64,000 bases of DNA from Gracilariopsis chorda (lineage: Eukaryota > Rhodophyta > Florideophyceae > Gracilariales > Gracilariaceae). Below, piece by piece: positions 6,090-62,902 of this stretch (the first letter of the stretch is position 1; every line of letters begins with the position of its first letter). The notes below the pieces were generated by a model that saw only the letters and a program-made list of their open reading frames with translations, did no database searches and had not been told where the DNA came from. A program made the translations under genes and the position numbers. The stretch spans positions 62,001-126,000 of the forward strand of contig NBIV01000096.1 of the NCBI GenBank assembly GCA_003194525.1, in the 5' to 3' direction.

Positions 6090-7140
6090 CCCAGTCTCGA
6101 GTTCTAAATCTTTCGCATTATGCGAAGTTATCGGCTCATCCAGGCGGGAGAAAGCTTTAATACACCGTACGCAAGGATTTCTACTGGCCAGCTATGGCTG
6201 TTGACGCATATGCTACCGTCCGAAGTTGCTCGGCATGTGCGAAGAACCGCATCAAGTTGCGGATGTACTCAAAGAAGTGGGTCCTATTCTCCGCAAGGGC
6301 TCCCCTTGAATCTGTCGCAATCGACATCTTTGGCGAATTCATCCGAACACCTCGGGCCAACCGCTACTTGCTGGTAATTACTGACCGCTTCTCTTAAACT
6401 TGTGCGGACGGTCCCCTTGCCAAAGGTTTCGGCTACCTCCGTCACGAAGGCTTTTGTTAACCATTGGGTTTTCACCTATGGACCACCATTTGATTTGTTA
6501 TCGGATAATGGATCGCAGTTCTCAACGAAGTTTTTCCAGGACGTATGTCGCATTCTTGACATCAAGAACTGGTTTACCACCACCTACCACCCGCAAGCTA
6601 ACGGGCAGGTGGAGCGTTTCAACCGCACAATGCTGAACGCCCTGAGAACGTTCGTTGCGGAACACCCCACTGATTGGGATCTGTACACTGACGCGGTAAC
6701 CTACGCCTACAATACGCAGGTTCACCGAGTCACCGGAATTGCTCCATTTCAGCTGGTACTCTCGCGTACCCCACCACCGGTGGCAATCGAACTCCAAGCT
6801 ATTTTGGACAAGTTTCCGTCACCACGGTACCACAGGGACGCTTGGAAAGCTTGGTTAACCAAGATCTTACCAGTTGTACGGAATGCGATGTCTAAAGCGC
6901 AAGCCACTTATACGCGGAATTTCGATGCCCGAGTGGACAGGACCCCGAAGTTCGGGGAGAACTCTTATGTATTCCTCGGCAAGGAATATTACAACCCCGA
7001 AAAGGAGAAGCGGCACAAGCTGTCTCCGATCGCGGAGGGCCCATATAGGGTTGTTTCTACTACCGACACGACGGTTGTCCTTGATATCCAGGGACAGCAC
7101 GAACGTCTCTCGCGTGACCGCGTCGTCCTCGCGCCGAGGC
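6090..7140 (+). pseudogene. Chromovirus integrase (broken)
   Basis: An HHCC zinc-binding region (about 6110-6245, ending CSACAKNRIK) precedes a DDE core: VAIDIFGEF near 6316, LLSDNGSQF near 6496 and QANGQVERFNRTM near 6594. The GPF/Y-like module follows in the stretch around GPYRVVSTTDTTVVLDI. The domain order is normal for a chromovirus. It is interrupted a few times in its first part. Confidence 0.92.
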
Positions 7141-8235
7141 CAGCTAACGCCGCTACCCGGGAACCTCCGGCACAGGACACACCCGTCGACACGGAAACCC
7201 CCACCGCGGAGGAGGAAACTACCCGCCCTACTGCTTTACCCCACCCGGAACGTGGCCTTGCTGACTTGCTGACCGCGTCGGAACCTCACCCAGCACGCCT
7301 GGCACCGTCCCACATCCACACGCGCATCGCCGCGCTCATGGGGATTCTTACCTCTGACCCCGTCGCTCCAGCAAAGGAGGGGGAGAGGACAGCTAGTTTT
7401 TCGCCGTCGCAAACGGATTCGCCGGTTACCCCATCGCGGGGAGTACAACCGCAAAAGGCAGAAACAGAGAAGAAGGATGTTAGCAGGAAGCCCGCGCAGG
7501 CGGGATACGTACCGCAAACGCGGAAGGAATTCAAGAGAACCACATCGATCGCGGCAAGAGAAGGGCAGAACACCCGAGAACGCTCGGTGACTGCTGACCC
7601 AGATCTGGGATTGTCTGATGAAGTCGCTCACGACACCGTCGAGAAGACGGACGGGAGCCATGATAACGGAGAGCGCACACGCGCCACGGATAGTGCAGAT
7701 TCACCAAGTCACCTGGACGCGCCAACAGAGCGCCAAGTGTCACCTCCCGTAGAGGAACTGCCTCCACAGGAGCTGGAACTCACACGTGCAACGCGCGGCC
7801 CTGTCGCAAAACGGCCGCCGTTTGAAATTGAAAATTCCGAAATTAACGGCCCGTCCCACGGCGACGTGGAGCTTGACAGTGAACCGCCCGTGCCAAACGG
7901 CCAACCGCCGCCACGGCACGTGACCGTGCACCGCACGCTGAGCGTGCGCGACGCGGAACCTCCTCCGTCAACACGGAAACACCCCTTGAAGCCGAGGAAA
8001 CTCGCAGTACGGGACGACTGGAAGCCCCAGAAAAACCACTCTGAGGTGGAGGACCCGAAGAATCTAGACGTAGCACCAAGGGAGCGCACCACAACCGCCT
8101 CCAAGGCACTGTGGCCTCGCTCACGGGAACCACCTGGAGTACAGGACGCGCTACCACCGAAGCGGGAGAAGGCAGTTACAGCCGACCGCAGTCACAGCGG
8201 AACGGAGCCCTCCGCCAAGGAAAGCCGCGTACCGC
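7140..8235 (+). other. Unusually long Pro/Glu/Thr-rich linker between integrase and chromodomain
   Basis: About 365 codons of low-complexity, Pro-, Glu-, Thr- and Arg-rich sequence, open in one frame, separate the integrase core from the chromodomain. In most chromoviruses the chromodomain follows the GPY/F module closely. The linker has no recognisable domain and is probably disordered. Confidence 0.6.
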
Positions 8236-8462
8236 CCATACAGTGGGAAGTACACGACAAAGAGTTTGTCATTGAGACCATCGTGAGCCATGGTTACGAT
8301 TCCAATGGTGAATTGGTTTACCGAGTGCGTTGGTACGGATACCCTCCAAACGAAGATACACCCGAACCGATCGAGCACCTTCCACGCTCGAAGGTCTTGC
8401 AATACCACCGCAGGATGCGGACTCCGATACCAGCTTCGCTGGACAATGCCCAAGTGGGTTGA
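8236..8462 (+). pseudogene. Chromodomain at the pol C-terminus
   Basis: The sequence VIETIVSHGYD, YRVRWYGYPP and the following acidic segment form a chromodomain with its aromatic positions (Y, W, Y) in place. This places the element in the chromovirus lineage. The known role of the domain is to bind modified histone tails and guide integration. Confidence 0.88.
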
Positions 8463-13800: not shown

Positions 13801-16431
13801 TCACTTATTCTGATCTGCATGATCTTCGACTATGCTCAGGCCTCTATTAATGGCTTTGTCGACCATGTTTCGGATATTCTGTTTAGACATATGGGTAGGA
13901 GTATCAAAAACTTGGGGCCTGCTTCGAGATTCGACTCGCCGATGAGAAGTTTTGCGTCGCGACTTTTTGGTTTGCGAAGTTTCAAGGCATGATCTCTTTC
14001 GTTTTTCGTTTCGCGTTAGTCCTGCGTTTGGATTCTTGACTTCAATAGGATTACTGCTGCTTGAAGATGGTTTCACAGAACGAGCCTCTCGTAGTCCCGA
14101 GGTTTTCTGAACAGAACTTTGAGAAGACGGAAGAGGAGCTCGTCCGCAAGACAATGATTTGATCGCGTTTTCAAGAACGAGGCGTACGCTCTGCAGAGCA
14201 AGCGGACCAAGTCTTGACGCTAGGCCATGCATTTTGTCTGCTAATGCTCTCGCGTCAGACCAAGACAAGTAGTCCCTAACTTCCTTCTCTATGGCCTTAC
14301 TCACTTCTTCTTCTTGTACACACTCAGAGTTGGTGTCAGCTTTCACTTTCTTATTTCGAACAGTTCGGAAGTGCTGCATCGCTATTTTAGACCGGATATA
14401 CGCGATGTACTTTACGTAACCGTCAACATGGTTGAATTTCCAATAAGGGTCGAAAAATTCTTCGATCTCAACCCTGTTACCCAAAATGGCTCCCAATCTG
14501 TCATGGCGGAGAACAATTTCAGGGTATGCAACCGCGCATCGTACCATGTGACGGCATGGAAACCCCGCAATGGAATGTTGTTGGCACGAGCCGGCGGCGA
14601 AAGCCTTGCAACCCTTTTCGTAATCCAGTGTCTCACGTCTGCTCATAAAAACTTGAAACATGGATGGGATCGAGGAGAATTGTATAGTTTGCGGATGACT
14701 GTCCAGTGCCTTTGTGCGTTGCACCTTGAATACAACGACGTCCTCGAGAATATCTTCATCTGGTACTCGATTATCAGGCCACGCTGCGCCGCTCATGGTT
14801 GTTACTTCAGCATTAAGTACAGCATATGATTTGCTCGGAGCCACGCTCAAGTCCACAAACTTCAGGAGAGAATACGCCGTATAGTTCGTGATGAGGCCAT
14901 TCATGACGCGCTTTGGTAGTGGAAGCTGGAAGTTTGCAATCTTTCGGTGACTCCAGCTCTGCTGCTTGAGCGTTTTCTGTCTGGAAAGAGCTCGCTTCTC
15001 ATTGCTCTTCTCGTTTACTCTAGCCATTTCTTTGGGGACTTTGTAAAGGGGCACTTTTCTCTGAAGAATGTGCCGTCTGTATGAGGAGTTCGAACATTCG
15101 GTGTATCCTGTTCCCTGGAAGAGATAAAGGTATGGTACAGATAGGTTTCGGTAGAAAGCCACCAGCATCTGCGGTTGTCTATGGTATAAGAAATTGTACC
15201 ACGAAGGCGGGTCTTGCTGGAAGGAGTAAAAGAACTTTCGTTCGAAATCTGTTCGCAGAGCTCAAAACGTTTCCTCCGTCCTCGAATTTCTTATTCTAAA
15301 GAGATCTGCTGACATCTCTTTCGAAACATTATCGAGCCCAACTTTGCTACACCATGTGGCACAATTCTTCATCTGATTTTGATTCAGATGCCACTCGTCC
15401 AATGCAACGTAAGAAGACTTGAACACTGTCCGGGCGGCATTTATACAGGGCACGCTCTGGTCCATTGCAATCATAGACGAAGACAATCGTATCGTAGACT
15501 GGAACTGTCGTAAGACCCTTTCGAAGCATTCCTCGGTCTCACTAGAAATAAATGCCATAAAGAAAGTTAGAACAAATCCGTCATTTGATCTTCCGTTGAT
15601 GGTCAGTAAAGGAAGCCCAAATCTGTTAGAAATTACCTTGCAATCGATGCTGACTCCGGGTATCACCCCAAATTTCTCGTAGTCATCCAACCACTCCCTG
15701 AATGTCCATGCCGCAGAGTCCATTTTCCCATCATCAGTGATGGTCAAAAACACTTGATGTGCTGAATCCTCTTCTCGTATTCGTAGTAACTCTGGGCAAA
15801 GGCGCATGCATTCGTGGTCTTTGGGAGCCTCCGCACCCATGGCGTAAGTCAGCTTGTTGCGCAACACCTTCGTATTGATAGATATGTCATACCTTTCCTC
15901 CAGCAACCTCAGAATGTCTCGAAATGGGATGTGGATCTCATTTCTCAGCTTAAATGGCTCTGCCTGTAGCCTTGGGGGGAGGTGATGAACCACTTTGTTG
16001 ACATTTGGGGGATGATTGTGGTACGACACCTTCATTTTACACTCATACTTCTTCACAATGCTGTCATCAGTTTCTCGACTGGAGACACAGTCAAGAGTTC
16101 TGATATGGCACGTAAAGGGACACCTCTGCGCTATTCTGTTCTTATCACGTTTCACAATAGCTCTTTGTAGTACTGCTTTGTGAGCAAGTCCCTCATATTT
16201 CTCCTCTCTGGGTGCCACAATGTGTTTGTGATACCGTGAGCTCCTTGTTGTAAGTGTATGTCCAACGCACTCTGCGATAAACTTCACCTCTCCAAGTACC
16301 GCAAGTCTTGGCATGTTTTCTTCTACTTTGGATATGTAAGCATAAAGTGCCTCACTGAATAAACCTTCTTCGCTCTCTTCAGATTCATGACTTCCAACAG
16401 CAAAATGCCCATTCAATTTGGGTTTAAACAT
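13801..16431 (-). pseudogene. Mutator-like element (MULE) transposase
   Basis: One reading frame of about 876 codons starts at ATG 16431 and is interrupted by a single in-frame TGA at 15262-15264. The N-terminal part has a FAR1-like zinc region (CPFTCHIRT ... YECKMKVSYHNHPP). The MULE core follows: GVSIDCKV (first Asp), LLTINGRSNDG, SSETEECFERVL, IAMDQSV (second Asp) and LDEWHLNQN. After the stop a SWIM zinc finger is clear, in the sequence CQQHSIAGFPCRHM (C-x-H pattern), and then a basic, Ser-rich tail. The MULE family moves by cut and paste. I did not find its terminal inverted repeats, so the element borders are open. The 203-bp hairpin array begins about 60 bp upstream of the start codon. 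Confidence 0.85.
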
Positions 16432-16490
16432 TTAGACCAAAACCAAAAACCAGAACCGCAATCCGCCGGACTACAGTCCCGGGTGCGAAT

Positions 16491-17135
16491 GTATTCCATC
16501 ACTGCCATGATGGAGTACATGACATTAATTTGCACTTATTTTTTTGAACGTCAAGCACGGCACCGAACCGCAGCTAAAAACCCGCTCTGCATATATCTCA
16601 CGTGTGGACGCGTAAACAAAGCTACCTGGCCAGATGCCCACATTGCACTGTAAACACCGCTCGGGCTGAGGACTGTGGTCCCAGGTCCCAATATACTCCA
16701 TCACTGCCGTGATGGAGTACATGACATTTAAAAACACTTGTTTTTTTGACCGTCATGCACTGCACCGAACCACAGCGAATCCTCCCGCTTTGCATATCTG
16801 CCACACGTAGACGCGTAGAGAACGCTACCTGGTCACTAGCCCACATTGCACGGTAAACACCACTCGCGCTGAGGACTGCGGTCCCAGGTCCCAATGTACT
16901 CCATCACTGCCGTGATGGAGTACATGAAATTTAAAAACAATTGTTTTTTTGACCGTCATGCACTGCACCAAACCACAGCCAATCCTTTTGCTTTGCATAT
17001 CTGCCACACGTGGACGCGCAAAGAACGCTACCTGGCCACTAGCCCACATTGCACTGTAAACACTGCTCGCACTGAGGACTGCGGTCCCTGGTCCCAATGT
17101 ACACCATCACTACCATGATGGTGTACATGATATTA
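16491..17135. repeat. 203-bp tandem array with one hairpin per unit
   Basis: Three full units of 202-203 bp and part of a fourth. Each begins with a hairpin of 28 bp (starts 16491, 16693, 16896, 17099). The consensus arms are GTACTCCATCAC and GTGATGGAGTAC with a TGCC loop. Between hairpins lie an A/T-rich AAAACAATTGTTTTTTTG-like stretch, a CACACGTGGACGCG motif and a GGACTGCGGTCCC palindrome. In the fourth unit the arms change to CACC and GGTG together, so pairing is kept. The array sits between the MULE start codon and the methyltransferase-SET cassette, ending 190 bp before the latter's ATG. It is not a CRISPR: the units are long, and only the hairpin is palindromic. Confidence 0.92.
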
Positions 17136-17324
17136 AAGAATACCTTTGATACGCTCTGCATTTAATCCGTGAAAGCCCTTCCACAATATAACCCTAACAT
17201 TCAACACTGCTGCGATACGTACAACCTCTCGTGCCCGTACGAATCCGTCCAGTTTGCTAAAAAGAGTACTGTGACGGCCGTATATCTCACACTCGATTCA
17301 TCCTCCTCACGAAACAACGGAAGA

Positions 17325-18660
17325 ATGTATGGCTCCGGAGATGAACTGATTGCGTCTTATCTGGCCCTGCGTGATAAGTACGCCGCCAGTCGACAAAACA
17401 GAGATGACCCAAGGAACGTTCGGAACACGACAATTGTGGATTTCGCAATCAACAATCGGAACGCGCACAATGCCGCTCAGGCAATGTTTAAAACCCTCAT
17501 CGGCCCAGACTATATTTAGTACAAGGAAGATGAGCTACGGGCTGTTGCCTTGAAAGGACCAGCCCGTCAATTGTTTTTCATCTCGAAGATTTTGGACTTG
17601 AAGGATGGAGATCCGGATAAAAGGGTACGTCAGTTTTGGGACGCCTACTCGGCTCAGTCGTTCAAAGGAATCCCAAAGAATGCGTTGTTGTCCTCGTTCT
17701 TTAAATCGAGGATTCTGGGTGTCGGAAAACGTGTCTCTCCCTTCCACACGGAAGGTACGACCACTTTCGAAGTTATCTTATGCCTATCTTTTATCCAAAA
17801 GATATCGCTGGAAAAGAAATCCGCATCGCATAAGAAGAGAAAGACTGGTTCAGGATCTGTAAGTCCTTTTTCCAAATTCAGTGTTTCGGATAGGTTACAA
17901 AGCCAGCTCGTGGGATACGGGATTTAAATCGTCACGAAAGCCTGGGACAGGTTCGCTAAATTTGTTGGATTCCCCGAAGCTGAGTTCATGCTCTTGCCTT
18001 ACCTCACCACCGATTTTGCCCAAATGCTTTTTGTCAATATCCCTAATCGTATAGAAGGTTTCCAACGAAAGCATTCCTCGCTTAACTTACTCGATACCAC
18101 CAGTATAACAGCGGTGGAAACAGAAGTGGTCGAATGGGCATGGAATCTGCCACCTCAAGTGGATGCGTCTTTGCGGTTATGTGCCAAGGAGTTTCTGGCC
18201 GACTAAGACAGCGTGGTGGTGAATGAAAGGCTATTCGAGGTATCTTCCCCTTCCCGATGGGATGTGCTCAGTAGATTCGCAGTGACACCATCCCGAGCCT
18301 TCCCAGAAAGGTTTCATAGCTTTACGGAAGCTTTTGTAACAACGATTCAAGAGATTGTAAGACCACTAAACCTTATATCTCTATATGGCGTTACATTTTT
18401 GGATGCAAACCGCGTGAAGCTGGAACCCAGTGAAGAACTTGTTGCGCACGCTGGAGTCGTGTCGGTGAACACATCCGCACAGGCACGCAGTGGGGTACTC
18501 CTTGGAGACGACGAAGACGACGAAGAGGAAGAAACCAACACCGTAGGAACAAAACAGACAGCACCGTTACCGACGGAGCTGTTCGACAAACCCTTGTACG
18601 ACGCTATACAAACTGGGATTCTATCGCCTCCGACCTCGAACACTATAGACTCCTTAATGG
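17325..18660 (+). other. Cassette 1, N-terminal region of unknown family
   Basis: About 440 codons. Shared stretches with copy 2 prove common descent: LALRDKY / LELRDEY, DDPRNVRNTTIVDFAI / DRPRNARYATLVDHAI, then a DELR-rich helical part, and WDRFAKFVGF / WDCFATFLGF. The part before the methyltransferase holds an acidic run (DDEDDEEEE). No known domain is recognised. It could be a DNA-binding or targeting module. Confidence 0.7.
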
Positions 18661-18739
18661 CCTATAAACGGTGTGAAACAGAGATGAACAAAAACTTCCG
18701 CCTGCACAACTCCCCGTTTCACCTTCTATTGGATGTGGA

Positions 18740-19620
18740 CGACAACACAGCTGGAGATGCTGAGCTGTCTATTGAAGGACGGGTCCAGCTCATCATCACG
18801 GACCCGCCATATAACGTCCGCGCCATGACAGGCATGGAAAATAGTGACTACGACGTCCCCAATGAGAAGAACATGCGACAGATGGGGCGGGTCATGTCTA
18901 AACTACTCCGACCAGGAGGACACTTCATCATTTTCTGCTCATGGGACCAGATATATCTCTGGCGCGATATATTGCAGAGAGTCGCTTACAAGGACGATAA
19001 TGGGGGTGCCAAGTACTCCTTCTTGCTGGGTGAACAACCCATGCACTTTATTCGGTCATTCGGCAACACCATGGGCAATGCTGGACGTTGAGGAGTTCGG
19101 TTTCATCAGACCACGGAGTACGCAGTGCATGGAGTGCGTACCGGTGCTCCTAATTCTCAAATGCATAACATGGTGAACTACGACAACTTCGACCACGTTC
19201 ACCCACGCTACCCGGGATACCATGCGGTAATTGATGAAGTACCCCAGCTGGTGAAAGGGACGTTGTTACAGTGGTCGGTGCAGACAAGCAACGGAGAAGT
19301 GCGAAGACGCAGAGTACGTCCGGAACCAAAATGCCGAGCGCTACTAAAGAAGATAATCTGCAGATTGTCTCAGCCCGGGGACATGGTGGTGGACATGTTT
19401 GCGGGGACATTCTCAACTGCCATGGCATGCATGGAGCTCTCAAAGCATCGCAAGTTTGTCGGATCGGAACAGGATGCGGCGTGCTTTGCTCACGCTAAGC
19501 ACGCCGCCGTTCTACACTTTGCGAGAACCATCCAACTTGCCGAAAACGACATCCCGAAAACCCAAGAAGTCCGTGGCGTAGCACACACAGTGGCATATGC
19601 ATTTCCGGAAACGAGAACCA
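18740..19620 (+). other. Cassette 1, beta-class DNA amino-methyltransferase domain
   Basis: Motif IV is a perfect DPPYN (18801-18812 for DPPY), preceded by hydrophobic VQLIIT. Motif V/VI-like LRPGGHFIIFCSWDQ follows. The AdoMet-binding motif I, DMFAGTFSTAMA (from 19392), comes last, with FVGSE as the motif II acid. The order IV then I defines the beta class (pfam N6_N4_Mtase, as in CcrM). DPPY rather than SPPY points to adenine N6. All residues expected for catalysis and AdoMet binding can be seen, although the cassette as a whole is interrupted. Confidence 0.88.
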
Positions 19621-19748
19621 GACTTTCCCGCACCTGGACAGCACCAAAGCACTTCCAGCCGTAGCAAAAGTTCCCTCCTCATGTTGTAGGCTTTCCCTCG
19701 TCCTTATGGGAAAGCACCGAACTTAACGACATTGGGCGGAGGGTTGCT

Positions 19749-20404
19749 GTGGATCAATGGCCCGCACCCCTGCGAGGGAAATTGAACCTCGTGGACATAA
19801 GGTCGTTGTTATCGGTAGAATCTGTTACATACGGATGCCGTGTGAGCGCATCCTCGATAAAACACGACAACGCGGGTGTTGGGGTTTTCACGAACCGTCG
19901 GATTGTGGAAGGCGAGGTAGTTTGCTACTACTACGGTACAATTGTCTACCACGACTTGTCCGGTAGGAAGGAAATCCATAAGACGTACGGGGAAGGCGTG
20001 ATGGGAGTAACGGCAGATAGATTCCGTAAGTACGCACTGGAGGTCAAGGTACCTGAAGAACACTTCCAACCGCTACCAGAACGTAACAATGACCGCGCAA
20101 ACCGAATTCCAGTTTCGTTGGTGGTCCCGGCCCCCTTTTGCTTGGGAGGCTTCATCAATGATCCAAAATATGTGGAAGGGGATAAAGAGAGAAATGCGGT
20201 GGTGGATGGTCGTATAAAGCGTCGTGAACAGAACGTTTTTATAAGAAGAACACCGGCTGCGGGAAAAACACCTTCGAAACTTAGTGCCAACCACTTGCTC
20301 ATTGTAGAGGCTCTCCGGGACATGACGTGGGTGAAGAATTGTTTATGACCTAAGGCGATGTTTACGATTGGGGAGCGAATACATCTCCTATACTTATTGA
20401 CTAG
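19749..20404 (+). other. Cassette 1, SET domain
   Basis: A SET fold with GVGVFTNRRIVEGEVVCYYYG at its start, a middle region with HKTYGEGVMGVT, and a C-terminal GEELF at 20330-20344 followed by the YDW stretch. The usual NHS motif is replaced by GFINDPKY, and copy 2 has ALINDPRY at the same place, so the change is shared. The family methylates lysines, usually in histones. It is fused in frame behind the DNA methyltransferase. Confidence 0.82.
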
Positions 20405-42003: not shown

Positions 42004-44499
42004 ATGCCTTCCTTCCACGTCGCTGGCGTCCCGATTCAGTTTTCGTTTCAGCCCTACCGAACTCAGCTTGCACTCATGCACACCGTCATTTGTGCTGCCA
42101 GACAACCCAAGAACGCCGTCATTGAATCGCCCACAGGACCGGGCAAGAGCTTGGCTCTCTTGTGTTCTGCACTCGCCCTCCAGCAGTACTTGATTGATAA
42201 CGATTCCAACAACACGCCTGAACCCCACCTCACACCCACCCAACCCCTAAACGCACAGCCCAATTCTAAAAACCCCAAAAACCCCCCTCCGTTCTCTCTA
42301 AACCCCTAAAACCTTCTTTCGCCAACGCTTCGGATGACGATGATTTTCAAAAGCCCAAGCCTTTCACGCACACAAAACCCCAAACGCACACACTAGCAGC
42401 CACATCATCTCCTAAACACCGCACACATGAAGACGTTCCGCATGTATCTTGGTTGCAGCAACCCCTAAAACCCACCGACCTCTTTCGCCATCTGCCTTCT
42501 CAACAGGCGCATGCCAGCACAAATGTGAAACCGCCTGTGCGTATCTTCTACGTGACAAGAACCCACTCCCAATTAGCGCAGGTTGCGTCAGAGCTTCGCA
42601 AAACCACCTACACCCCGCGAATGACTATCTTGGGCTCACGCAATGAGTATTGTATCAACCCAATAGTCTGCAGCTCCAACCGCAACACCAACGAAATGTG
42701 CCGCGCTTTACTTTATGGCAAGCACGGCTGCTCTTACGCTTCCGGATCAGAGCTACTGTGCACCCTACACCTCATCGACCAAGAACCTTGGGACATAGAG
42801 GACATGGTCCAGCTAGGAAAACGACATCATGCATGTCCTTACTACGCCGCGCAGACCCTCTTTGATTACGCCCACCTCATCTTGTGCCCTTACAACTACA
42901 TCCTAGACAACGTATGCCGATCGGCCTGCAAGATTGATTTGAGCAACGACATCCTTATATTCGATGAGGCGCACAACGTGGACGAGATGGCGCGTGATTT
43001 TTCCACCTTCTCTGTCGATATACGCACCATTACCAATACCGCCAACCACGCTTTCCATTTGTTGCGCAATGCTACCCCGGAAACGGCTCTACATGTTTCC
43101 TTGCAACACCTCTCCAACATGTACTTTACCCTCGTCACTCTCAGTGAACATTTTCTTGTCCAACTGCAGCTTGTGCAACGAGAACAATTTGACAAAGCCA
43201 TCGTCGAAGGTCGATCCATCCTCAACTACTTTACCCAAAACAAACTCACACGCAACCTACTCCACGACTGGACCGTTGCCGAGTCCTATTTCAAAAAAAA
43301 ACAAGCACTCCCAGCTCATGCAACTGCTCAAAAATCACAATCAGCCTCCCACAGCTCCCAATCGTGCGAGCATAAAAACACCTAAAAACCCCAACAACAA
43401 CAACCTGCTCCCAAACGGTGGCGCCAACTACTCCTCTGAAAAACATCTGGTGGCGTATGAGCTTGTACGCGACGGTTTCAATGACGCAGCCCGCATTATC
43501 ACCTCTTTATCCAACATGCTTTCACAGCCGGAGCACTTCACTTTGGTGGTCACAAGGAAGTTCTGTGACGGAACCACACAGGTCCAACTCTCTCTTTTGT
43601 GCATGAGTGGCTCCCTCTCATTTTAACAAATATCTCGTACAGCGCGATCGGTCATCCTCACCTCCGGAACCTTAAAACCATTACAACAATTCTGCAAAGA
43701 GTTGGGCACTCCTTTTCACTTCGTCAAAACCCTCCCTCACGTGGCCAATGTACACACCCAACTGTTCTTGGCCTTTGCCATTAAAGGTTCCTCGCACGTC
43801 CCGTTCACCGCCACATCTGCTGCTTCTAAAACGCCAGCCTTCAGACACGAACTTGCCAATGCTCTTGTTCAATACCTCCGTGTCATTCCCAATGCAGTTC
43901 TGGTGTTCTTACCAAGCTACACTGTGCTGCATGACTTTCATCGCTACTGGTACTCCTCTGGAGCATGGGACGCGTTTCACAGTACAAAACAGTGTGTGTT
44001 TCTCGAACCAAAGAAAAGGGGAACAGAATTTTACATAACGTTATCCCTGTACACCCACGCTTCCAAACAACCAGGTGGTGCGGTTCTCTTTGCCGTTTAC
44101 CGCGGCAAGTTTTCCGAAGGTGTTGATTTTCGAAATGAAGCTTCTCGAGCCGTCATCTTGATTTGAATCCCCCTACCATACCTTGAGCATCTTCCAACTC
44201 GGTGCAAAAGAATGTGGCAAAACCGCACCAACTCCGTGAGCACTGACCTATCTTCTGGACAAGACTGGTATTACAATCAAGGCTTCAAAGCGTTAAACCA
44301 GGAGCTGGGCAGAGTTTTGAGGCACAAAAATGATTATGGAGCTGTCATATGCGTCGACCACAGATTCCTCAACCATTTTCTTACCCACAAACTGCCCGAA
44401 TGGGCCTTTGAAGGCCTTAAGCTTCCGCCACACCAACCACATCATGTTCTCATTCGGAAACTGAACACCTTTTATGAATCAATGTCTACTATGCATTAA
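42004..44499 (+). pseudogene. FANCJ/BRIP1-type iron-sulfur DNA helicase, broken host gene
   Basis: A homolog of the XPD-like helicase FANCJ/BRIP1 (DNA interstrand-crosslink repair, G-quadruplex unwinding, 5' to 3', nucleus). The N-terminus GVPIQFSFQPYRTQ and ESPTGPGKSLALL give the Q motif and Walker A. All four Fe-S cysteines stand in the FANCJ pattern (YCINP, NEMCRALL, HGCSY, ACPYYAAQ). DEAH is at about 42961 in FDEAHNVDEMA. The C-terminal motifs VILTSGTL, VLVFLPSYTVL, AVYRGKFSEGVDFRNE and QELGRVLRHKNDYGAVI follow. Breaks: a frame change after 42300, another near 43383, TAA at 43624 and TGA at 44164 (where the family has Gly). Walker A also has GPGKS for GTGKT. ATG 42004 is the expected start. 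Introns could explain the first two breaks but not the last two. Confidence 0.85.
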
Positions 44500-45708: not shown

Positions 45709-46369
45709 ACGTTCTTAGAACGACTGCATACTGTACAAAAAAAACCTCTTCAAACAAAACACTCAACACAAAAGACAATCACAAAACCCCTCTTGTTCGT
45801 TCGTCCAACGTCCCACTGCAACGCTGCATTTCTTATAAACCTCAAATATCCAGACCCATTTGCCCATTTAGCTACACCCCTTTTCTTCTCTTTCCTGCGA
45901 AATCATGATTTCCTAAAACTCTGAAGCTCTGCGGCACAAACCCCTTTACAAAAAAAACCCTTAACTCTACAAACGCCTGCAATTGAAACAAGCCCCATTA
46001 TTTAACCGCAAAAAAACCCTCAAAAGCATACCAGGACCTCAAAGTTCACAGATCGTGCTCAAAACCCCTCCATAACACATTCCTTTAAAATGCTCTAAAA
46101 GCGCGATTACGATTCATTCATAAAACCAAACGCTTAAACGTCGCCATGCCTACCCCTCAAAAATCTCTTTACCAAACTATATATATACGCGCAAACGAAA
46201 AACAAACTGAACGCCCTAAACCCGTGCTCAAACAAAATCTACAACGTCTCTATCTCTCTCTCTCTCTGAAAACACACTTTCAAAGCCATCTAACAACTAA
46301 TACATTATTTGCTCCCTTATTAAGAAGCTCAGACAATATTTCCAACGCTACGCACTGCAAAAGCGCATT

Positions 46370-47224
46370 TTGCCCGCGGTCATCATTGGCTGTGGAAGAA
46401 TTGGATCCCTCTTCAACACAAAGAGCGCGTACACAGGCTGGCGTCGCATTTTGAACTACTTTTCAAACCCTGGCATTGTGCTTGGCCGTCAAGACGTAAT
46501 CCCGGACGACTACTCCGGACCTATTTTCTGTTGTGTTCGCGCGAACGTCAGGCACACCAGAATCAACGCCTGCCCGCAAGCAAAACGCGAAGACCTAATC
46601 TTTATGCAAAACGGCCATATCAATTACACCCTAGAAAGCACTGGTGTGCTCTCCTCCTGCACGGACGTCGTGCAGTATATTGGTTTATCAACAAAGGACG
46701 CCCTCCCAACCGATGGCGTTACCGAACATGACCCACAGGGACTCACAGTAGCTTGCGGAAAGTGGGCAGAGCAAGTTGAACACCGCCTGGCCTATCACAA
46801 CCTCTCCTGTAACATTGTGGAGAACGATACGTTTGAATTGGCGTACTACGAAAAGATCATCTGGCTCTGTACCTTCAACCTCATCGGAATGTACCACGGC
46901 GGTCTACACATGAGTCAAGTTGCAAATGACAACACGGAGGAAGTCACGACAATCATGCACGAGCTGTTTCAAATCGTTCAGCAACGCACGACCGTTTGCT
47001 TCGATTTACCAAACTCCGTACAGAGGCTTCTTTCCTATAGCCGCACGCTTACGACCTTTCCTACTTCGTTTTCAGAGTATGAAAAAAGGAACGCCTACTT
47101 CTACGAGCATTCTAAGCGTATGATTGCACAAGGTCAGCAGGATCCATCCCCAATACACACTTCTTACGTGCAGGTCTTATTCCGAGATCACATAAACCAA
47201 CCCATTCTGGAATTACCCATCTGA
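46370..47224 (+). CDS. Ketopantoate-reductase-like NAD(P)-dependent oxidoreductase
   Basis: 284 codons, close to the ~300 usual for the ApbA/PanE family, which reduces 2-dehydropantoate in pantothenate synthesis or acts on related substrates. The Rossmann fingerprint VIIGCGRIGSLF is at the very start. DLIFMQNGHINYTL carries the family's QNG. The helical C-terminal half begins ELAYYEKIIWLCTFNLIGM, corresponding to the W/YxK...N motif. The protein looks complete, but its first codon is TTG: homology would begin exactly here (PAVIIGCG), and no in-frame ATG precedes it nearby. So either the start codon was lost, a non-ATG start is used, or a short upstream exon exists. The sequence is otherwise unbroken, unlike most neighbours. 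Confidence 0.7.
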   Translation: MPAVIIGCGRIGSLFNTKSAYTGWRRILNYFSNPGIVLGRQDVIPDDYSGPIFCCVRANVRHTRINACPQAKREDLIFMQNGHINYTLESTGVLSSCTDVVQYIGLSTKDALPTDGVTEHDPQGLTVACGKWAEQVEHRLAYHNLSCNIVENDTFELAYYEKIIWLCTFNLIGMYHGGLHMSQVANDNTEEVTTIMHELFQIVQQRTTVCFDLPNSVQRLLSYSRTLTTFPTSFSEYEKRNAYFYEHSKRMIAQGQQDPSPIHTSYVQVLFRDHINQPILELPI

Positions 47225-49919: not shown

Positions 49920-52901
49920 ATGGATTTCTCTGAGCTTTCCTCCGAGATATACCGGAGAATTCAAGCGGCGAGGTCATCTACTATACGTCTCGCCCCCGCA
50001 GATCTATTCGTCGGCCCATTGATAGGACGAAGCACATCACACACCCACTTTGTTGCACTCGCAAACCAGATTTTTCGTGGCGTGGACTTTCATGTGTCGC
50101 AAGCTTTGCTCGTGGTGAAGGGCGATAGCGGCTTGGCCCTTGGAAAACTACTTGTTGTAGGCGGCAGTCACCGACTTCTCGTCAGCGCTCACTTGAATCA
50201 TATGCTTCTCATTCCATACCGGCTAATTAATCTCAGTGGGATGGGTACCAACAACATCATTGTGCACCTGAAACGGTACGACGGCATCATTGCGCACCAT
50301 GTCGAGTCCTCAGAGCCCAGACCCCAAGTACACACCATCATGGACCAAGTGCTCATGTACGGCAAACTAAAGGAATTTTGGACATCGCAGCAGATCAACC
50401 GCCGAAAACTGACACGCACAACACGTGCAAGACCGCCGTCTATGACTCACAACAAGCTGCTACATCTGTATAAAGTGCTTCAAACGTCGGCAGGTATTAA
50501 CAGTTGCCATGCAATACAATTCCTAGACTTCACCTTAAAACCCAATTCCATCAGCGGGTACATGTCTGGAGCGGACAAATTGCTTCAAGCAGACGTGCTT
50601 CCTGATCTGTGCTATCTAGAAAAACAGGCGAGAACCAGATTCTCTCGCGCCTCTCTTAATACCGTTCGACACTGGTGTCTTCACAGAATCCAGAAAAATG
50701 TCACGTACTGGAAGTCTAAATCCCAATGCAGTGGCGCTAGTAACTTTGTGTGTCGCTTCTCTGACGATTATGATCCCTTTCCCAGTGGCGACGAAGAGGA
50801 TCACGACAACAATGGCTCACAACGTTCTAAACGCGACAGTCCTCTCGCCAAGCATATTTCGGAGCACCCTGCCGCCAAGAAACGGAAAACAAAGATAACT
50901 CCGTCCGCCACAACATCTTTGCGAAGACATCAGAAGCAGCAATGTAAGGACGAAACAAACGATGAAGTGCAGCTGGAGCGGCAAGAACAACCGCTTCCCA
51001 AAATACCAACGCGTAATACTGCCACTGCATCCAACACCAAAACCCCATCCCCGTCGCCAAAAGCCCAGCGGTCGACGCGTTCTATTCAAACCCCTAAGCG
51101 TGCTAAATTCGCATGTTCACCACCCCTAGGCTGGTGTGGATACGTCAACTGGGATCTGCAAGGTAATATGACCCTTTTACACAACCTGCAACGACGTTTA
51201 GAGAACGAGCACGTCGCGAAGACCGACGTTCAGGCCCAGCAACATGCAGTACCCTACAGCCAGGAGGAAAGAAATCGTATAGTTAACATGGTAAGAGAAC
51301 GAGTTCTTTCAGCTCCCTACAACCCTAGTATCGCCGAAAATGGCACCGAGCACGACGACAACCAAAACAAGATCAACAACCACAATCCATCCAGCAGGGT
51401 TTTCAATCTTGCGCCGGTTTTTTCACAGGTTTGCGCGGAGTTGCACAACAACACAACCAACAAGGACCTAAATAGCAGTCGTAAGCCCAACTAGCCGCAC
51501 AAGTCAATACTGGCTGCCACAGGAGGCTTCCTTCAAACAACTCTCTCGCTATCCCAGCAAGAGGTGCATTCTATACACGACTGCAGCATGGCTAGTAACC
51601 AAACTATAATGTTCACGTTGTCTTTTCTCAACAGCTGGACTGAGCCATCATCAAAGAAAGAAATGTACATTCTGGACCCTCAGCTGGTGGCTAGATGGTG
51701 GGATACCGTCTCACGCGAGGGCAGTTCACCGTTGGATCATCTCAGCGCCAAAGTCGAAGACTTTCGCAACACATCAACAAAACGCAAATCCAATCCCCAC
51801 GACAAAATCCGTACATCGAAACTGTCCATTGTGATGTTGTGTGGGCACAATCATTGGACGGTAGTTGCGTTTGCAAACCTGCTGCTCCTTTTCGAAAGGC
51901 TGGAGCGTGCCACTCATATGCTAAAACGATCGCACAAACAACACTTGAAACAATGCAGAGCCACCATGTTCTTTGTCGATAGCATGTCGGCCAACAACCC
52001 TCCTCATGCTCCGCTCTCTGAAAACATCGTTCATTACCTAACCGCGTCGTACCCAGGACAGAACGTCGTATCCTTCCACCTCCTATCGTCAATCGTCACC
52101 GCTCACCACCTTCGATGCAGTATCCAGCAAGACCTCGAGTGTGGATTCTTCACAACCTACCACATCGAGATCATTTCTAAACAAATCTCAACGTTTCTAA
52201 ACGGTTCCGAAATTGACGTGCAAAAGCACTTCAACCTATGGTACACCAAATTCTCCTTCAGCCACTACGCCGATTGCATTCGGCACCATATGGAAGTTCT
52301 CATGCACACATTCGAGGAGAACGGACAGGCACGTGTACCATGCAACATGTTCACTGCCTCGGCTCAACAGCCCCTGAAGCAACCCACCGGAACGACCCAT
52401 CCAAGTGTCCCACATACAAAAACCCCTATAACTCCAGAAGCTTTCAACGCCCAGCACACCGTACACCAGCGAGGTGAGGCCAATCGACCAAAAACCACTT
52501 CAAAGCGAGATGGTTTCCATGACGGGAAGCGACAACTTCAACGTAACCCTACACAGCTCACACAGCACGTCCCCAAATCCAATAATAACAACAAAAAACT
52601 ACGCACCATCCTTCAAGACCCTGTGGTACTCAACGTGGTGACAGACGCTGTCAAAGGGAGTGACTTTGCAGGGGTTGAAACGGCCCTCACTACCATTTTG
52701 CTTCCTCGTATTCAGAGAGCTCTGCACAAGCCCAATGATAGCAACTCTTTTCCTGCTACTAACGCTGTCAAATCGCATCAAACACAACAATTGATTCCAC
52801 AACAACAAGCTCGTTCTCCTGTACCCTACTGCAAAAGAAAACCCCAACAACATACTTCCCCGTCGTATATCTACAACCTCCGCACACGCAACGGATGTTA
52901 A
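49920..52901 (+). pseudogene. ParB/sulfiredoxin-like plus Ulp1 (C48) cysteine protease protein
   Basis: One frame of about 993 codons from ATG 49920 with a single in-frame stop. Residues 22-110 look like a ParB/sulfiredoxin fold: DLFVGPLIG, then LLVVGGSHRLLVSAHLNHM in place of the VxDGHHRxxA core, then LIPYRLI. The middle is basic, Ser/Thr-rich and disordered. The C-terminal half carries a complete C48/Ulp1 catalytic set: HNHWTVV (His at 51852), FFVDSMS (Asp at 51978), and a Gln two residues before DLECGFF (Cys at 52140). The family cuts ubiquitin-like tags or viral/transposon proteins. Such proteases occur in host deSUMOylation enzymes and in several DNA transposons. No capsid or polymerase gene is seen beside it. 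The gap 52902-53658 holds no gene I can support. Confidence 0.7.
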
Positions 52902-53658: not shown

Positions 53659-53945
53659 TAAGCGACCGCTGCGCGCTTGTAGGATGGCAATTGTTCCTAT
53701 CGCACATGCCTGTACTGGTCGCTTGATCACTGGCGCTTCAAAAATTACAATTTTGTTTGCTTGCAGTGGTGGAGCGACCACCGCCGCCATGTACGACAGG
53801 GTTTTTCCTGTCCTACATTCGCGCTGTGGTCGCTCGACCACTGGCGCTCCCAAAAATTACAAGTGTTTAACCTGCAGTGGTAGAGAGACCACCGCCGCTA
53901 TGTAAGAAAGGTCGTTTTGCTGTCGTACATGCGCGCTGTGGTGGC
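53659..53945. repeat. 112-bp hairpin-unit array, short copy
   Basis: About two and a half units of the 112-bp repeat that forms the large array at 58660-59397, in the same orientation (unit starts near 53761 and 53873, with a decayed unit before). Each unit holds GTGGTCGxxCGACCAC palindromes on both sides of a longer ATGTACGACAGG hairpin. Divergence between units is larger than in the big array. The gap 53946-54323 contains a poly-T run and nothing else I can name. Confidence 0.85.
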
Positions 53946-58659: not shown

Positions 58660-59397
58660 GGGAGTATATCCCGTCGTACATGCCCGCAGAGGACGCTCTG
58701 CAATTTGCGCTCCATAAGCATTACAATTTTTTAGCCTGCAGTGGTCGAGCGACCACCAACGCCATGTACGACAGGAAAAAGTCCTGTCCTACATGTGCGC
58801 AGTGGTCGTTCGACCACTGGCGCTCCAAAAAAATACAATTTTTTAGCATGCAGTGGTCGAGTGACCACCACCGCCATGTACTACAGGAAAAAATCCTGTC
58901 GTACATGCGCGCAGTGGTCGCTCCACCACTGGCGTCCAAAAAAATTACAATTTTTTTAGCATGCAGTGGTCAAGCGACCACCACCGCCATGTACGACAGG
59001 AAAAAGTCCTGTCGTACATGCGCGCAGTGGTCGCTCGACCACTGGCGTTCCAAAAAATTACAATTTTTTAGCCTGCAGTGGTCGAGCGACCACCACCGCG
59101 AGATTCGACAGGAAAAAGTCCTGTCTTACATGCGCCCAGTTGTCACTCGACCACTGGCGTTCCAAACAATTACAATTTTTTAGCCTGCAGTGGTCGAGCG
59201 ACCACCACCGCCATGTACGACAGGAAAAGGTCCTGTCGTACATGCGCGCAGTGGTCGCTCGACCACTGGCGCTTCAAGAAATTACAATTTTTTAGCCTGC
59301 AGTGGTCGAGCAACCACCACCGCCATGTACGACAGGACAGTTGCCTGGGGTACATAGCCGCATTGGTCGCTCGACCACTAGCGGCCCAAAAACAGCC
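58660..59397. repeat. 112-bp tandem array, three hairpins per unit
   Basis: Six units start at 58737, 58849, 58962, 59074, 59186 and 59298 (period 112-113), after a partial one. Each unit has GTGGTCG-AG-CGACCAC, then a hairpin with 14-base arms CATGTACGACAGGA and TCCTGTCGTACATG around a 5-base loop, then GTGGTCG-CT-CGACCAC, then TTACAATTTTTTAGC. The end units are the most worn. The array ends 360 bp before the start codon of methyltransferase-SET cassette 2. It shares ATGTAC...GTACAT hairpin ends with the 203-bp array before cassette 1, but not the rest of the sequence. It is not a CRISPR. The region 58202-58659 upstream of the giant gene holds nothing else I can name. Confidence 0.94.
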
Positions 59398-59756: not shown

Positions 59757-60815
59757 ATGCCCAACTACACAAAGACAATCTTGGCTCTGTTGGAGCTACG
59801 CGATGAGTATGCGCGCGAATGAATGCCAAGCGATCGTCCTAGGAACGCCAGGTACGCCACTCTCGTGGATCACGCGATTTGGGTGCGAAGGAACTCCACT
59901 GCTGCGCGCGCTCTCTGCTCCCAAGCAACCAACACCCCGAACGTGTCTACTGTCGGGGATGAAGAACTACGCCGCGCGTTGTTGTACACTTCGAATACCA
60001 CTCGCAATGCGTTCCAACAAAGGCACAAAATTGCGAAAGTGAGCGACCAAACAGACACCGAAAATGAATCAAGGGTGAAGGATTACTACCGCACATGTAA
60101 CGCACGTGGTATAAACTTCACAATTCGCTTCTTGCTCAGCGACTTGATCAAATCGCCCGTCACGTGCATTAATACGCGCAAGAACAAACGCAACGATATC
60201 CCAACAGAACGAGCTTCGTGATTCGAGGTGTTGATTTATATGACGATGTTCGTACAGTTGTCTTGCCAGCGCGTAGCTTTTTCTGGAAAGCGAAAGCGAG
60301 GACCACCCATTCCGGGTGCTCAGACGACGCCGAGCTCCCTTAGGAACTTCGACGCGTTCACCTGCAGCCGAGTTGCGTACGGTGTGCAACAGGTGACTTG
60401 CTTGTGGGATTGCTTTGCCACCTTTCTCGGATTCGCTGATGTTGAGAGCATGATGTACCCGTATATCATTTTCGATCCGGACAGCTTGGGGTTTGAAGTA
60501 ATAGGCAATCGTGGAGATGGCTTCTCTCCACTCACGCAGCTTAAAACTCTCACACGGGACCTTAAATCATGCACTGACCCATCCCAAGTGGACTCCAAAG
60601 CGTTCGCACAATCGGACGAGGTGGATTCAAGGCTTCGCGCACTGATTGATGAGTTCCTTAGCGATGTGGTCAGCGTCGTCTCACATCCCCGACTGTACGA
60701 GGCGAACTTGTGCCCATGGCAGTTGCTGCTAGAGTTGCTTCCAGACGACAAGCGTAAGGCATTCGAACCGCAGCATTCCCGGCAGCGTTCGTTCCCCCAA
60801 CGGTTCGCAAGCTGA
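59757..60815 (+). other. Cassette 2, N-terminal region of unknown family
   Basis: About 350 codons matching copy 1 in LELRDEY, DRPRNARYATLVDHAIW, the DEELRRALLY helical part, RFLLSDLIKSPV and VTCLWDCFATFLGFADVESMMYPYI. Beyond that the two copies align only loosely. Conservation across an old split suggests this region mattered for function. No known domain is recognised. Confidence 0.68.
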
Positions 60816-61074
60816 GTGCGCAACTTTAGAAACCCATTCGTGAGGTCAACACCACAACGCGCACGCGAATGCCAAATCTGCCAGTACTGCTGCTGAGCGT
60901 CCTGCCACTTCTGCCATACCAGTGGACGTCATACACTTGGTACAAGAACCCACCAGCAGCAGCAGCAGTGCTGGAACCACGGGCAGCAACCCCAAAGCGC
61001 CCCACCCCCCCTTCTCGCTAGGCCTGAACCCACAGAGTGCAATGGAGGGCAATCTTCGCTACAGCTAGGAGCAG

Positions 61075-62030
61075 GTGGACGTCATTCCCCCGGACCAGCC
61101 GGCCGACGTACACGTGCTCAATGCGTTGGAATTGGTGCAGGAGCATACGATGAAACACTACGCAATGTATAGCTGTGGTTTTGACGACCTCATGGATGTG
61201 CACAACACACTGCATGCCCAGGACTCCGTGCCATGCTCCCAGGCCCAATTGGTATTGACAGCCTCCCCTTACGCCATTCGCTCTGTGCATGGAAGGCCGA
61301 ACAGCGACTACGACGCCCTCACAGTCACTGACATGAAAGAGGTTACAATAACCATGAGTCGCTTCTTACGTGCTGGTGGCCACTTCGTCATTTTCTGCTC
61401 GCTTGAGCAGTTCCCGCGTTAGCATAAGCTGTTGAACAGCGTTGATCGCAAGGAAGCAGATGGTACCGTTGCCCCAATGTGCCGCGTGGACCACTGCCCA
61501 CTGCACATGATCCGTGCACCGGGTAACAACACCGTGCCCCCGGGCCGAGCATCTAAAGAGTTGATACCCATCACCCAATACGCGGTGCATGGCGTCAAAA
61601 CAGGTCTCACTCGGACCCAAGAGGACAAAATGGTGAACTAAACCAACTTCAGTTACGTCCCATCCACGGTCACCGCGTACAAGAACGTCATCGACCGTTA
61701 TCCGGCCGTCAATGTGAATGAACGTCTCATGTGGTCCCGCTACACAGACAGCGGACATGAGAAGCGTGAGGCTGTTCGTCCAGAACAGAAGCCGATTCGA
61801 CTCAACATGGAGCTAATTGCCAGGTTCTCCCAAACTGTTGATACGGTTCTTAACCTGTTTAGTGGCCTCTTCTCAACAGCGCTTGCCTCCATGTCTTTTA
61901 AGAAAGGCGAAGCACGCAGATTCGTCGGTTGCGAGAAGTACGAAGCATGCTTCCACCACACCAGACATCACGCAGTGAAACACTTCTCAACGCTCATCGC
62001 CGAGAACGTTGCCAGCGTTACCGTCACAAG
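61075..62030 (+). other. Cassette 2, DNA amino-methyltransferase domain with altered motif IV
   Basis: LVLTASPYAIRSVHG aligns with LIITDPPYNVRAMTG of copy 1, so motif IV reads ASPY (61261-61272) instead of DPPY. Shared downstream parts are LRAGGHFVIFCS, TQYAVHGVKTG and motif I LNLFSGLFSTALASM (about 61849) with RFVGCEK. Loss of the motif IV Asp would be expected to abolish adenine methylation. Whether SPY indicates a shift toward cytosine N4 chemistry or plain decay cannot be told here. Confidence 0.82.
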
Positions 62031-62239
62031 GTTTGGTGGATGCAGCCAACGCGGTGCACAACTACTTTAAGGGATATCTGTGCCCCTCCCGGACTTGGGC
62101 AGCCGTGCCAAACTTCCCTCAATACCAAACGCTGCCGGAGCACATAGTTTTCTATTGTGTCTCTAAATGGCGCCCACAGGACTTCGTCATCACCGGCCTT
62201 CACATGGACCTCTCTCAATGGCCCGAGAAGTACCAAGGA

Positions 62240-62902
62240 CTCTTCAACCTAATGAGCGTGAACGAGCTCCGCGCTCATGAGGTCTCAACGCTACGCCTTA
62301 TTGTGGCTGAATCAACCATTTTGCACCCGTCTGCTGGGGTTGGCGTTTTTGCAGGCTCTACGTTCACAGAAGACGAGACAGTCTGCCACTTTTACGGCAC
62401 GTTGGTATATCACGACATGTCCCAGAGAACTGAAATCCACAAAACATACGGCTCCGGCTTGATGGGCGTTACCCGACAGAATTTCCACACGTATTGTATG
62501 CAAGTGGACCCCAGGGCTCCGGACTTCACCTCACTCATCGGACTGAACAAGGACAAGAACATTCCAAGCGTATGGATCTCTCCAGCTCTTTTTTGCGTAA
62601 AAGCACTCATCAATGACCCAAGGTACCCCCATTTGGATCCTGACGCGCAGCCCGTTCGTGATGGTTTCAAACCCTAACGAACAGCCAATGTATACGTTGA
62701 TCGTTCTGCGATAGATGCGCTTAAAACACGTAAGCCTCTCGAGCCTTACACTCTGATAACAATCAGAGCTTCACGCCGTATAGCACGCGGAGAGGAACTC
62801 TTCATCGACTACGGTACTTCTTACGATTGGACCAATGATCTTGGTACCCGTTCGCCCCAAACACCTTCTTCCACTTCTACACAACACAATAAAAACCCCT
62901 AA
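62240..62902 (+). other. Cassette 2, SET domain
   Basis: AGVGVFAGSTFTEDETVCHFYG, YHDMSQRTEIHKTYGSGLMGVT, FCVKALINDPRY and the C-terminal GEELFIDYG (62789-62815) followed by TSYDW give a complete SET fold. The NHS motif is replaced by IND, as in copy 1. The GEELFIDYG end is better preserved than in copy 1. The match to copy 1 is strongest in this domain. Confidence 0.85.

Follow-up and report, generated by a model that had tools for sequence, protein, structure and literature searches.

The window analysed here, a 64,000-nt stretch of the genome of the red alga Gracilariopsis chorda on contig C96, carries two copies of a gene in which a DNA methyltransferase (MTase) domain is followed by a SET domain, and both copies are pseudogenes (Table 1). 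In copy 1, which represents a lineage termed C, frame 1 of positions 17325–20404 contains, behind an N-terminal stretch, DPPYN, then DMFAGTFSTA, in the beta-class order, and then a SET-like region, as a previous sequence-only reading of this DNA had described. The whole MTase match to PF01555 (C96:80783–81487 in contig coordinates, E=7.7e-18) includes one internal stop, and N6_N4_Mtase was also matched by Pfam in two open pieces of the copy (E=1e-4 and 1e-10). SET on the C-terminal piece itself did not reach E≤0.01 in Pfam, and the end of the domain, including its final tyrosine, was not found in that frame by tblastn or in our alignment of the family (A1); the putative SET assignment in copy 1 comes from its alignment with PF00856-matching relatives. 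Given its in-frame stops, to which that reading had not drawn attention, no single product is possible from copy 1.

The same reading had counted the pairing twice in 64 kb, and copy 2 indeed belongs to the same family, in a different lineage (B2) and with frame breaks and stops. It was assigned to B2 by DNA and is 92% identical to L013 across 5.3 kb; in a three-frame reading its motif IV is ASPY in place of DPPY, and motif I is also changed. The DEAD_2 helicase gene of the window is a relative (tblastn, 43–57% identity) of the helicase that follows MTase-SET in lineage B1, and may be part of the element of copy 2.

Table 1. Features of the two window copies and one frame from lineage A (window positions, unless a locus is named).
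Feature	Position	Strand	Basis
Copy 1, MTase-SET gene, lineage C, decayed	17322..20315	+	tblastn to P0001 residues 28-1030, single frame, 52% identity, E=0
Copy 1, in-frame stops	17517, 17925, 18204, 19089, 19662; plus 20346 just beyond the aligned part	+	frame reading
Copy 1, conserved N-terminal region, no known domain (end approximate)	17322..18500	+	alignment A1; intact relatives without Pfam match
Copy 1, beta-class DNA methyltransferase domain, DPPYN then DMFAGTFSTA	18783..19487	+	PF01555 and alignment
Copy 1, putative SET domain (start approximate; last part absent from frame)	19833..20315	+	alignment to PF00856-matching relatives
Tandem array, 203-bp unit x 3.3, palindrome ATGTACTCCATCA..TGATGGAGTACAT per unit, 0.2-0.85 kb upstream of copy 1	16468..17134	.	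TRF and palindrome scan
Copy 2, MTase-SET gene, lineage B2, decayed: frame breaks and stops	59757..62875	+	tblastn, 45-52% identity to P0002; three-frame reading
Tandem array, 112-bp unit x 6.4, palindromes CATGTACGACAGGA..TCCTGTCGTACATG, upstream of copy 2	58669..59392	.	TRF and palindrome scan
More 112-bp palindromic units, ~5 kb further upstream of the copy 2 array	53661..53944	.	repeat and palindrome scans
DEAD_2 helicase gene (FANCJ/XPD-like), several frames (decay or introns)	42004..44208	+	DEAD_2, E=7.9e-45
821-aa frame between Plavaka and MTase-SET in A, L027 and D	L009:1334-3796	-	no Pfam match

Several further features were observed in the window. Beside copy 1 lies a MULE transposase gene (15262–16431, −), which probably belongs to a separate Mutator-like element, because three MULE copies on other contigs, 94–96% identical, end near window position 16400. 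At 6402–8462 (+), a chromodomain and two integrase matches below cut-offs share one frame, probably a chromovirus-type Gypsy element, and another frame (51564–52898, +) has a weak match, E=4.5e-4 and just under the cut-off, to Ulp1 protease, which is frequent in large transposons. Similar-looking frames with AVIIG.GRIGSLF in common lie upstream of MTase-SET in B2 (window 46301–47221, +, no Pfam match) and in B1 (L077:856–1371, +).

Intact relatives and domain conservation

The assembly that holds the window has 91.3 Mb in 1081 contigs. Seven nuclear matches to phycobilisome-linker genes and Lhc proteins of the red lineage agree with a red-algal genome; a search for the RuBisCO large subunit found none. 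Among 20 stretches fetched from the assembly, L009, L010 and L011 each have a frame that stays open for 1065 aa between stops, with about 99.5% identity, and L012 has one of 1039 aa, likewise stop to stop; P0004, which comes from another source and has 1060 aa, matches the lineage A protein with 94% identity across its whole length. Reassigned stop codons were rejected, since the uninterrupted copies need none. In the 1065-aa frame, Pfam matched MTase (PF01555, residues 518–756, E=6.1e-18) and SET (PF00856, residues 882–1044, E=1.1e-4); the 1039-aa frame has matches to both domains as well. The intact gene is predicted to encode one protein of about 1035–1060 residues, in which the N-terminal region is followed by a beta-class MTase of the CcrM/DpnA kind and then by SET. 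Thus, the fusion in one product proposed for this locus stands for the relatives, with open frames of 1065, 1039 and 1060 aa, and falls for the two window copies. Relatives in which MTase and SET are always independent genes were not found. The N-terminal region, which had been called novel, has no Pfam family match in intact relatives and recurs across the aligned lineages.

Genome-wide, at least 59 of 85 SET matches have an MTase match 0–900 nt upstream on the same strand (150 of 175 MTase candidates scored), in agreement with the earlier view that this is no chance neighbourhood. The other 26 have no upstream MTase match among the MTase matches listed; many of them are high-scoring and therefore are probably host SET genes. 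Searching for relatives by protein and by alignment brought P0004 and no further homologue, neither among 7682 candidates scored with a single-protein query nor among the best 7999 candidates with A1 as query. Viral origin is not supported, as patterns from P0001 and P0002 had no match in viral contigs, in a scan that reaches close relatives only; for bacterial relatives, 10 pattern matches were obtained in genome contigs and none was confirmed.

The MTase part has its best sequence matches in CcrM, M.DpnA, M.MboIIA and M.RsrI, of which DpnA and CcrM are nearest, and shares with them the motif order and motif I; its NCBIfam scores are far below the cut-offs. We know of no such N-terminal region, and of no SET domain, in these four enzymes. 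The predicted structure of the whole 1065-aa protein had a mean pLDDT of 46.9 and was too poor to use.

Alignment A1 consists of 18 rows, several of which are pieces of one broken copy, and covers lineages A (P0001, P0004 and the more distant L027), B1 (P0002, L021), B2 (L013, L022, L028), C (copy 1) and D (L020), with P0001 being 36% identical to P0002 and 34% to L020. When full-length rows and pieces are combined, the order N-terminal region, MTase, SET is kept throughout. Motif IV, for which the beta class has (D/S)PP(Y/W) ahead of motif I, precedes motif I here too and is DPPY in P0001, P0004, copy 1, L022 and L028, and is changed to DLPY in the decayed L027, DPTY in L013, DAPT in P0002, DAPA in L021 and DAPY in L020. 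Among the changed sequences, only P0002 (B1) lies in an uninterrupted full-length frame, L020 (D) being interrupted by a stop; DAPT in this intact frame indicates that not every lineage requires DNA methylation.

The MTase domain might then be mainly a DNA-binding and dimer scaffold, with only SET, or neither domain, acting as an enzyme. Such a role would suit the intact B1 frame and D, in which the remaining domain is still recognisable, as well as the dN/dS of 0.13–0.14 for the MTase region of B1 versus B2, a value that is near saturation and includes time before the DPPY loss. It fits poorly, however, with DPPY being kept in P0001, P0004, copy 1 and two of the three aligned B2 pieces, and with GTF(S/T)T of motif I, which is kept in all A1 rows covering it, though not in the decayed copy 2; we regard it as unlikely, though with a real chance of being right.

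SET enzymes usually carry an NHS motif and a C-terminal tyrosine. In the A1 rows covering these sites, GxGVF, INDP and the final tyrosine are kept, the N of NHS is retained and its H is absent. The presence of INDP at this place makes SET activity uncertain. Against the PF00856 cut-off of 22.4 bits, P0001, P0002 and L022 scored 22.9, 26.8 and 30.6, respectively, while P0004 (20.5) and partial pieces of L020 and L027 fell below it.

A Plavaka-type transposon carrying the lineage A gene

In lineage A, MTase-SET is carried by a DNA transposon of the cut-and-paste type that encodes a Plavaka transposase. By comparing C53 with C187, an 11.85-kb element was delimited, with 23-bp terminal inverted repeats (TIRs) and 2-bp target duplications (TSDs). 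The TIR pattern, with one mismatch allowed, had 175 matches versus 0 for the reversed control, and an exact 2-bp TSD was found in C53, in C187 and in 20 of 20 inward-facing TIR pairs picked among the matches listed of the 175. An MTase match is enclosed by 11 of these 20 pairs; the other nine enclose none among the MTase matches listed, so shortened derivatives seem common, and one 8-kb lineage A copy has neither the N-terminus of MTase-SET nor the end of SET. From stop to stop, the frames of the C53 element are Plavaka (1160 aa; transposase domain PF18759, E=1.1e-21, 77.9 bits versus a cut-off of 26.3), an 821-aa frame and MTase-SET on the opposite strand, and a 276-aa frame. The TIRs begin with CGTCGG, which gives the termini CGTCGG..CCGACG. 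In a published account, Plavaka elements have target duplications of 2 or 3 bp and termini of TGT..ACA (PlavakaA) or CATCA..TGATG (PlavakaB) (PMC12730594); judged by its ends, the algal element therefore belongs to a different subgroup.

Lineage D (L019, L020), with an MTase-SET of no more than 34% identity, and L027 have the same order of Plavaka, 821-aa protein and MTase-SET. With 150 of 175 MTase candidates and 123 of 133 Plavaka candidates scored, an MTase or SET match is found less than 8 kb away from 76 of the 114 Plavaka matches, although only 3% of the genome is that close to one, and 75 of these 76 neighbouring pairs are convergent, among the matches listed; conversely, Plavaka is this close to 71 of the 150 MTase matches and not to the other 79, again among the matches listed. 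The gene thus travels with the transposase in lineages A and D, and its copy number reflects transposition. Nothing was found to favour an ordinary host gene or two domains that are neighbours by chance. The TIRs and TSDs, the number of copies, the constant gene order and the open frames all speak against them; for lineage A both were rejected on the TIRs, TSDs and genome-wide pairing, and for the family as a whole we consider them highly improbable.

The compared lineage A copies are about 99% identical, which indicates that they spread recently. This spread speaks against a repressive protein that silences surplus copies of the element or competing elements, a function that could otherwise be read from the best SET matches in a PDB profile search, which were EZH2-like and weak (E=0.003). 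SET domains often write repressive marks; for the present protein we hold such a function to be quite improbable.

Palindromes, gene company and selection

Near-perfect palindromes, in repeated form, lie upstream of MTase-SET in lineages A, B1, B2, C and D. Scanning with arms ≥12, a loop ≤10 and one mismatch, low-complexity matches excluded, found 49 palindromes in the 1.6-kb regions upstream of the gene (14 loci, 22 kb) versus 7 in the remaining 113 kb, and shuffles of six upstream regions gave a mean of ≤0.05 and a maximum of 1. Since the 14 loci are related copies, the independent evidence consists of the lineages, which have two (A, 52–90 bp), 4 (B1), 3–8 (B2), 4 (C) and 3 (D) upstream palindromes. 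These differ among lineages, with a core common to B1 and B2. TRF arrays are present in L023 (B1), B2, C and D, and absent in A, L012 and L027; the last, a relative of A, lacks an array and shows just two small palindromes unrelated to the others, so that a palindrome rule without exceptions is disfavoured.

The B core was found at 120 sites versus 0 for the reversed control, and C70, C138 and C172 each have an additional core site ~10 kb past the array, which shows that palindromes occur beyond the MTase-SET promoter as well. The genes in the B region of the window have palindromes on either side, and another 112-bp palindromic unit is located outside the window, near C96:131.0 kb. The main A palindromes are ~1.5 kb inside the terminus. 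As a separate observation, internal deletions in shortened A copies begin or end at the upstream palindromes (L010:7382–7710 and matching sites), as if these promoted deletion.

For lineages B and C, no Plavaka was found in the window by tblastn, on contig C96 among the matches listed (123 of 133 candidates scored) or in the B stretches examined. What follows MTase-SET in B1 is two helicase genes, one DEAD-box (RecQ-like by reading) and one DEAD_2 (FANCJ/XPD-like by reading); in B2 a DEAD-box helicase follows, which for copy 2 starts just outside the window. The B and C elements were searched for their ends and none were located; comparing flanks for inverted repeats yielded, for B2, no repeats other than the 112-bp palindromic units and, for C, no repeat at all. 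Degenerate CCCCTAAAAT repeats, possibly a telomere repeat, were observed where C9 (C9:1–200) and several further contigs begin, as well as close to the end of C60; the corresponding pattern had 689 matches, with the reversed control also frequent at 288. Sequence of a B1 MTase-SET element, which has two helicase genes, extends to less than 0.2 kb from the C9 end and recalls telomere-linked helicases.

Dam methylation times or limits the excision of some bacterial insertion sequences. By analogy, the protein might serve transposition itself, marking element DNA (new versus old strands, or transposase sites) and so timing or limiting excision. The fixed order beside the Plavaka gene in the examined copies of A, L027 and D, the convergent arrangement of nearly all listed pairs and the palindromes flanking genes on both sides in the B region would agree with this. 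Yet it gives the SET domain no obvious role, the main A palindromes lie well inside the terminus, D keeps Plavaka although its DPPY is DAPY, and no Plavaka was found in the B stretches examined; we judge a service to transposition clearly unlikely.

Between the two A-type lineages, purifying selection has acted on the N-terminus, MTase and SET: comparison of A with the decayed L027 gave dN/dS of 0.18 for the N-terminus, 0.17 for MTase, 0.28 for the linker and 0.21 for SET (75 comparable codons). Silent sites are at or near saturation when A is compared with C, and for most of the comparison between B1 and B2. Within B1 and within B2, copies have dN/dS of 0.57 to 2.0, on few changes, and selection among them is near neutral. 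Purifying selection between A-type lineages and near neutrality within B copies form the pattern of a gene that is kept while jumping and lost after insertion.

A proposed self-targeted chromatin writer

We propose that the MTase-SET protein is a self-targeted dual chromatin writer on a mobile gene family, which counters host silencing, and we give this reading an even chance. The protein would bind the non-coding DNA of its own element, most likely the palindromes before its gene; it would there methylate both DNA and histone, if the catalysis and the base and lysine specificities are as we infer; and the marks so written would keep the promoters of the element open against host silencing. 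In its favour count the intact fused frames, the anatomy and recent spread of the lineage A element, the kept gene order, the purifying selection and the upstream palindromes, all seen in the sequences themselves, together with precedents for epigenetic cargo and the logic of VANC proteins acting on their own arrays, which fits here. More specifically, one protein may recognise its own palindromes and write a DNA-base mark and a histone mark there, with protein and palindromes having changed together over five lineages, with or without Plavaka; this is conceivable, and we lean towards doubting it.

Several features were counted against the writer proposal: the changed DPPY in several lineages, INDP, the SET scores near the cut-off in lineage A and below it in P0004, L027 without an array and the unmapped ends of the B and C elements. 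The palindromes elsewhere around B elements, the lineage-specific nature of the palindromes and the 79 of 150 listed MTase matches without Plavaka also stand against it.

Known systems resemble parts of this arrangement. The N4CMT of bdelloids joins a bacterial-type base methyltransferase to a chromatin module in a eukaryote, as does the gene described here; it is a host gene with a chromodomain, a reader, whereas here a transposon gene carries SET. Base methylation in red algae has, to our knowledge, been little studied. Among transposons, Plavaka and other fungal DNA transposons carry TET/JBP, and these Plavaka elements have the Plavaka transposase, the 2-bp TSD and an epigenetic enzyme as cargo in common with lineage A, while the lineage A cargo is a DNA methyltransferase-SET protein rather than a dioxygenase, its host is a red alga and its termini differ (PMC12730594). 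HarbingerS and MuDR transposons of Phytophthora encode SET and thus also have a SET methyltransferase as cargo; they belong to other transposase superfamilies, and the available part of that account does not mention a DNA methyltransferase in them (PMC12730594). In Arabidopsis, VANC proteins act on the tandem motif arrays of their own VANDAL transposons, with DNA binding and methylation loss, and the architecture is the same in that lineage-specific tandem motif arrays lie in non-coding DNA, some of them upstream of the gene (PMC5735166). VANC proteins are described, in the passages concerned, without methyltransferase domains, unlike the MTase-SET protein, and the VANC21 motif is a 9-base word in one orientation, whereas the repeats in the MTase-SET arrays, putative binding sites, are palindromes (PMC5735166).

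Cargo-bearing Plavaka elements and SET as cargo are therefore kinds already known. The pairing was unfamiliar to the sequence-only reading, and a literature search by title and abstract, partly of best-ranked results only, likewise found no description of an MTase-SET fusion or of a transposon carrying one; relative to the literature searched, the fusion, its place in a red-algal Plavaka-type element and the palindromes are new. If the proposal is true, a DNA methyltransferase and a histone methyltransferase united in one protein, moved by a transposon and kept by selection, would be a new arrangement. Transposons with a single epigenetic enzyme are already known; this family would allow a direct test of the ways in which mobile DNA withstands silencing by chromatin, and its uninterrupted, nearly identical copies make it testable.
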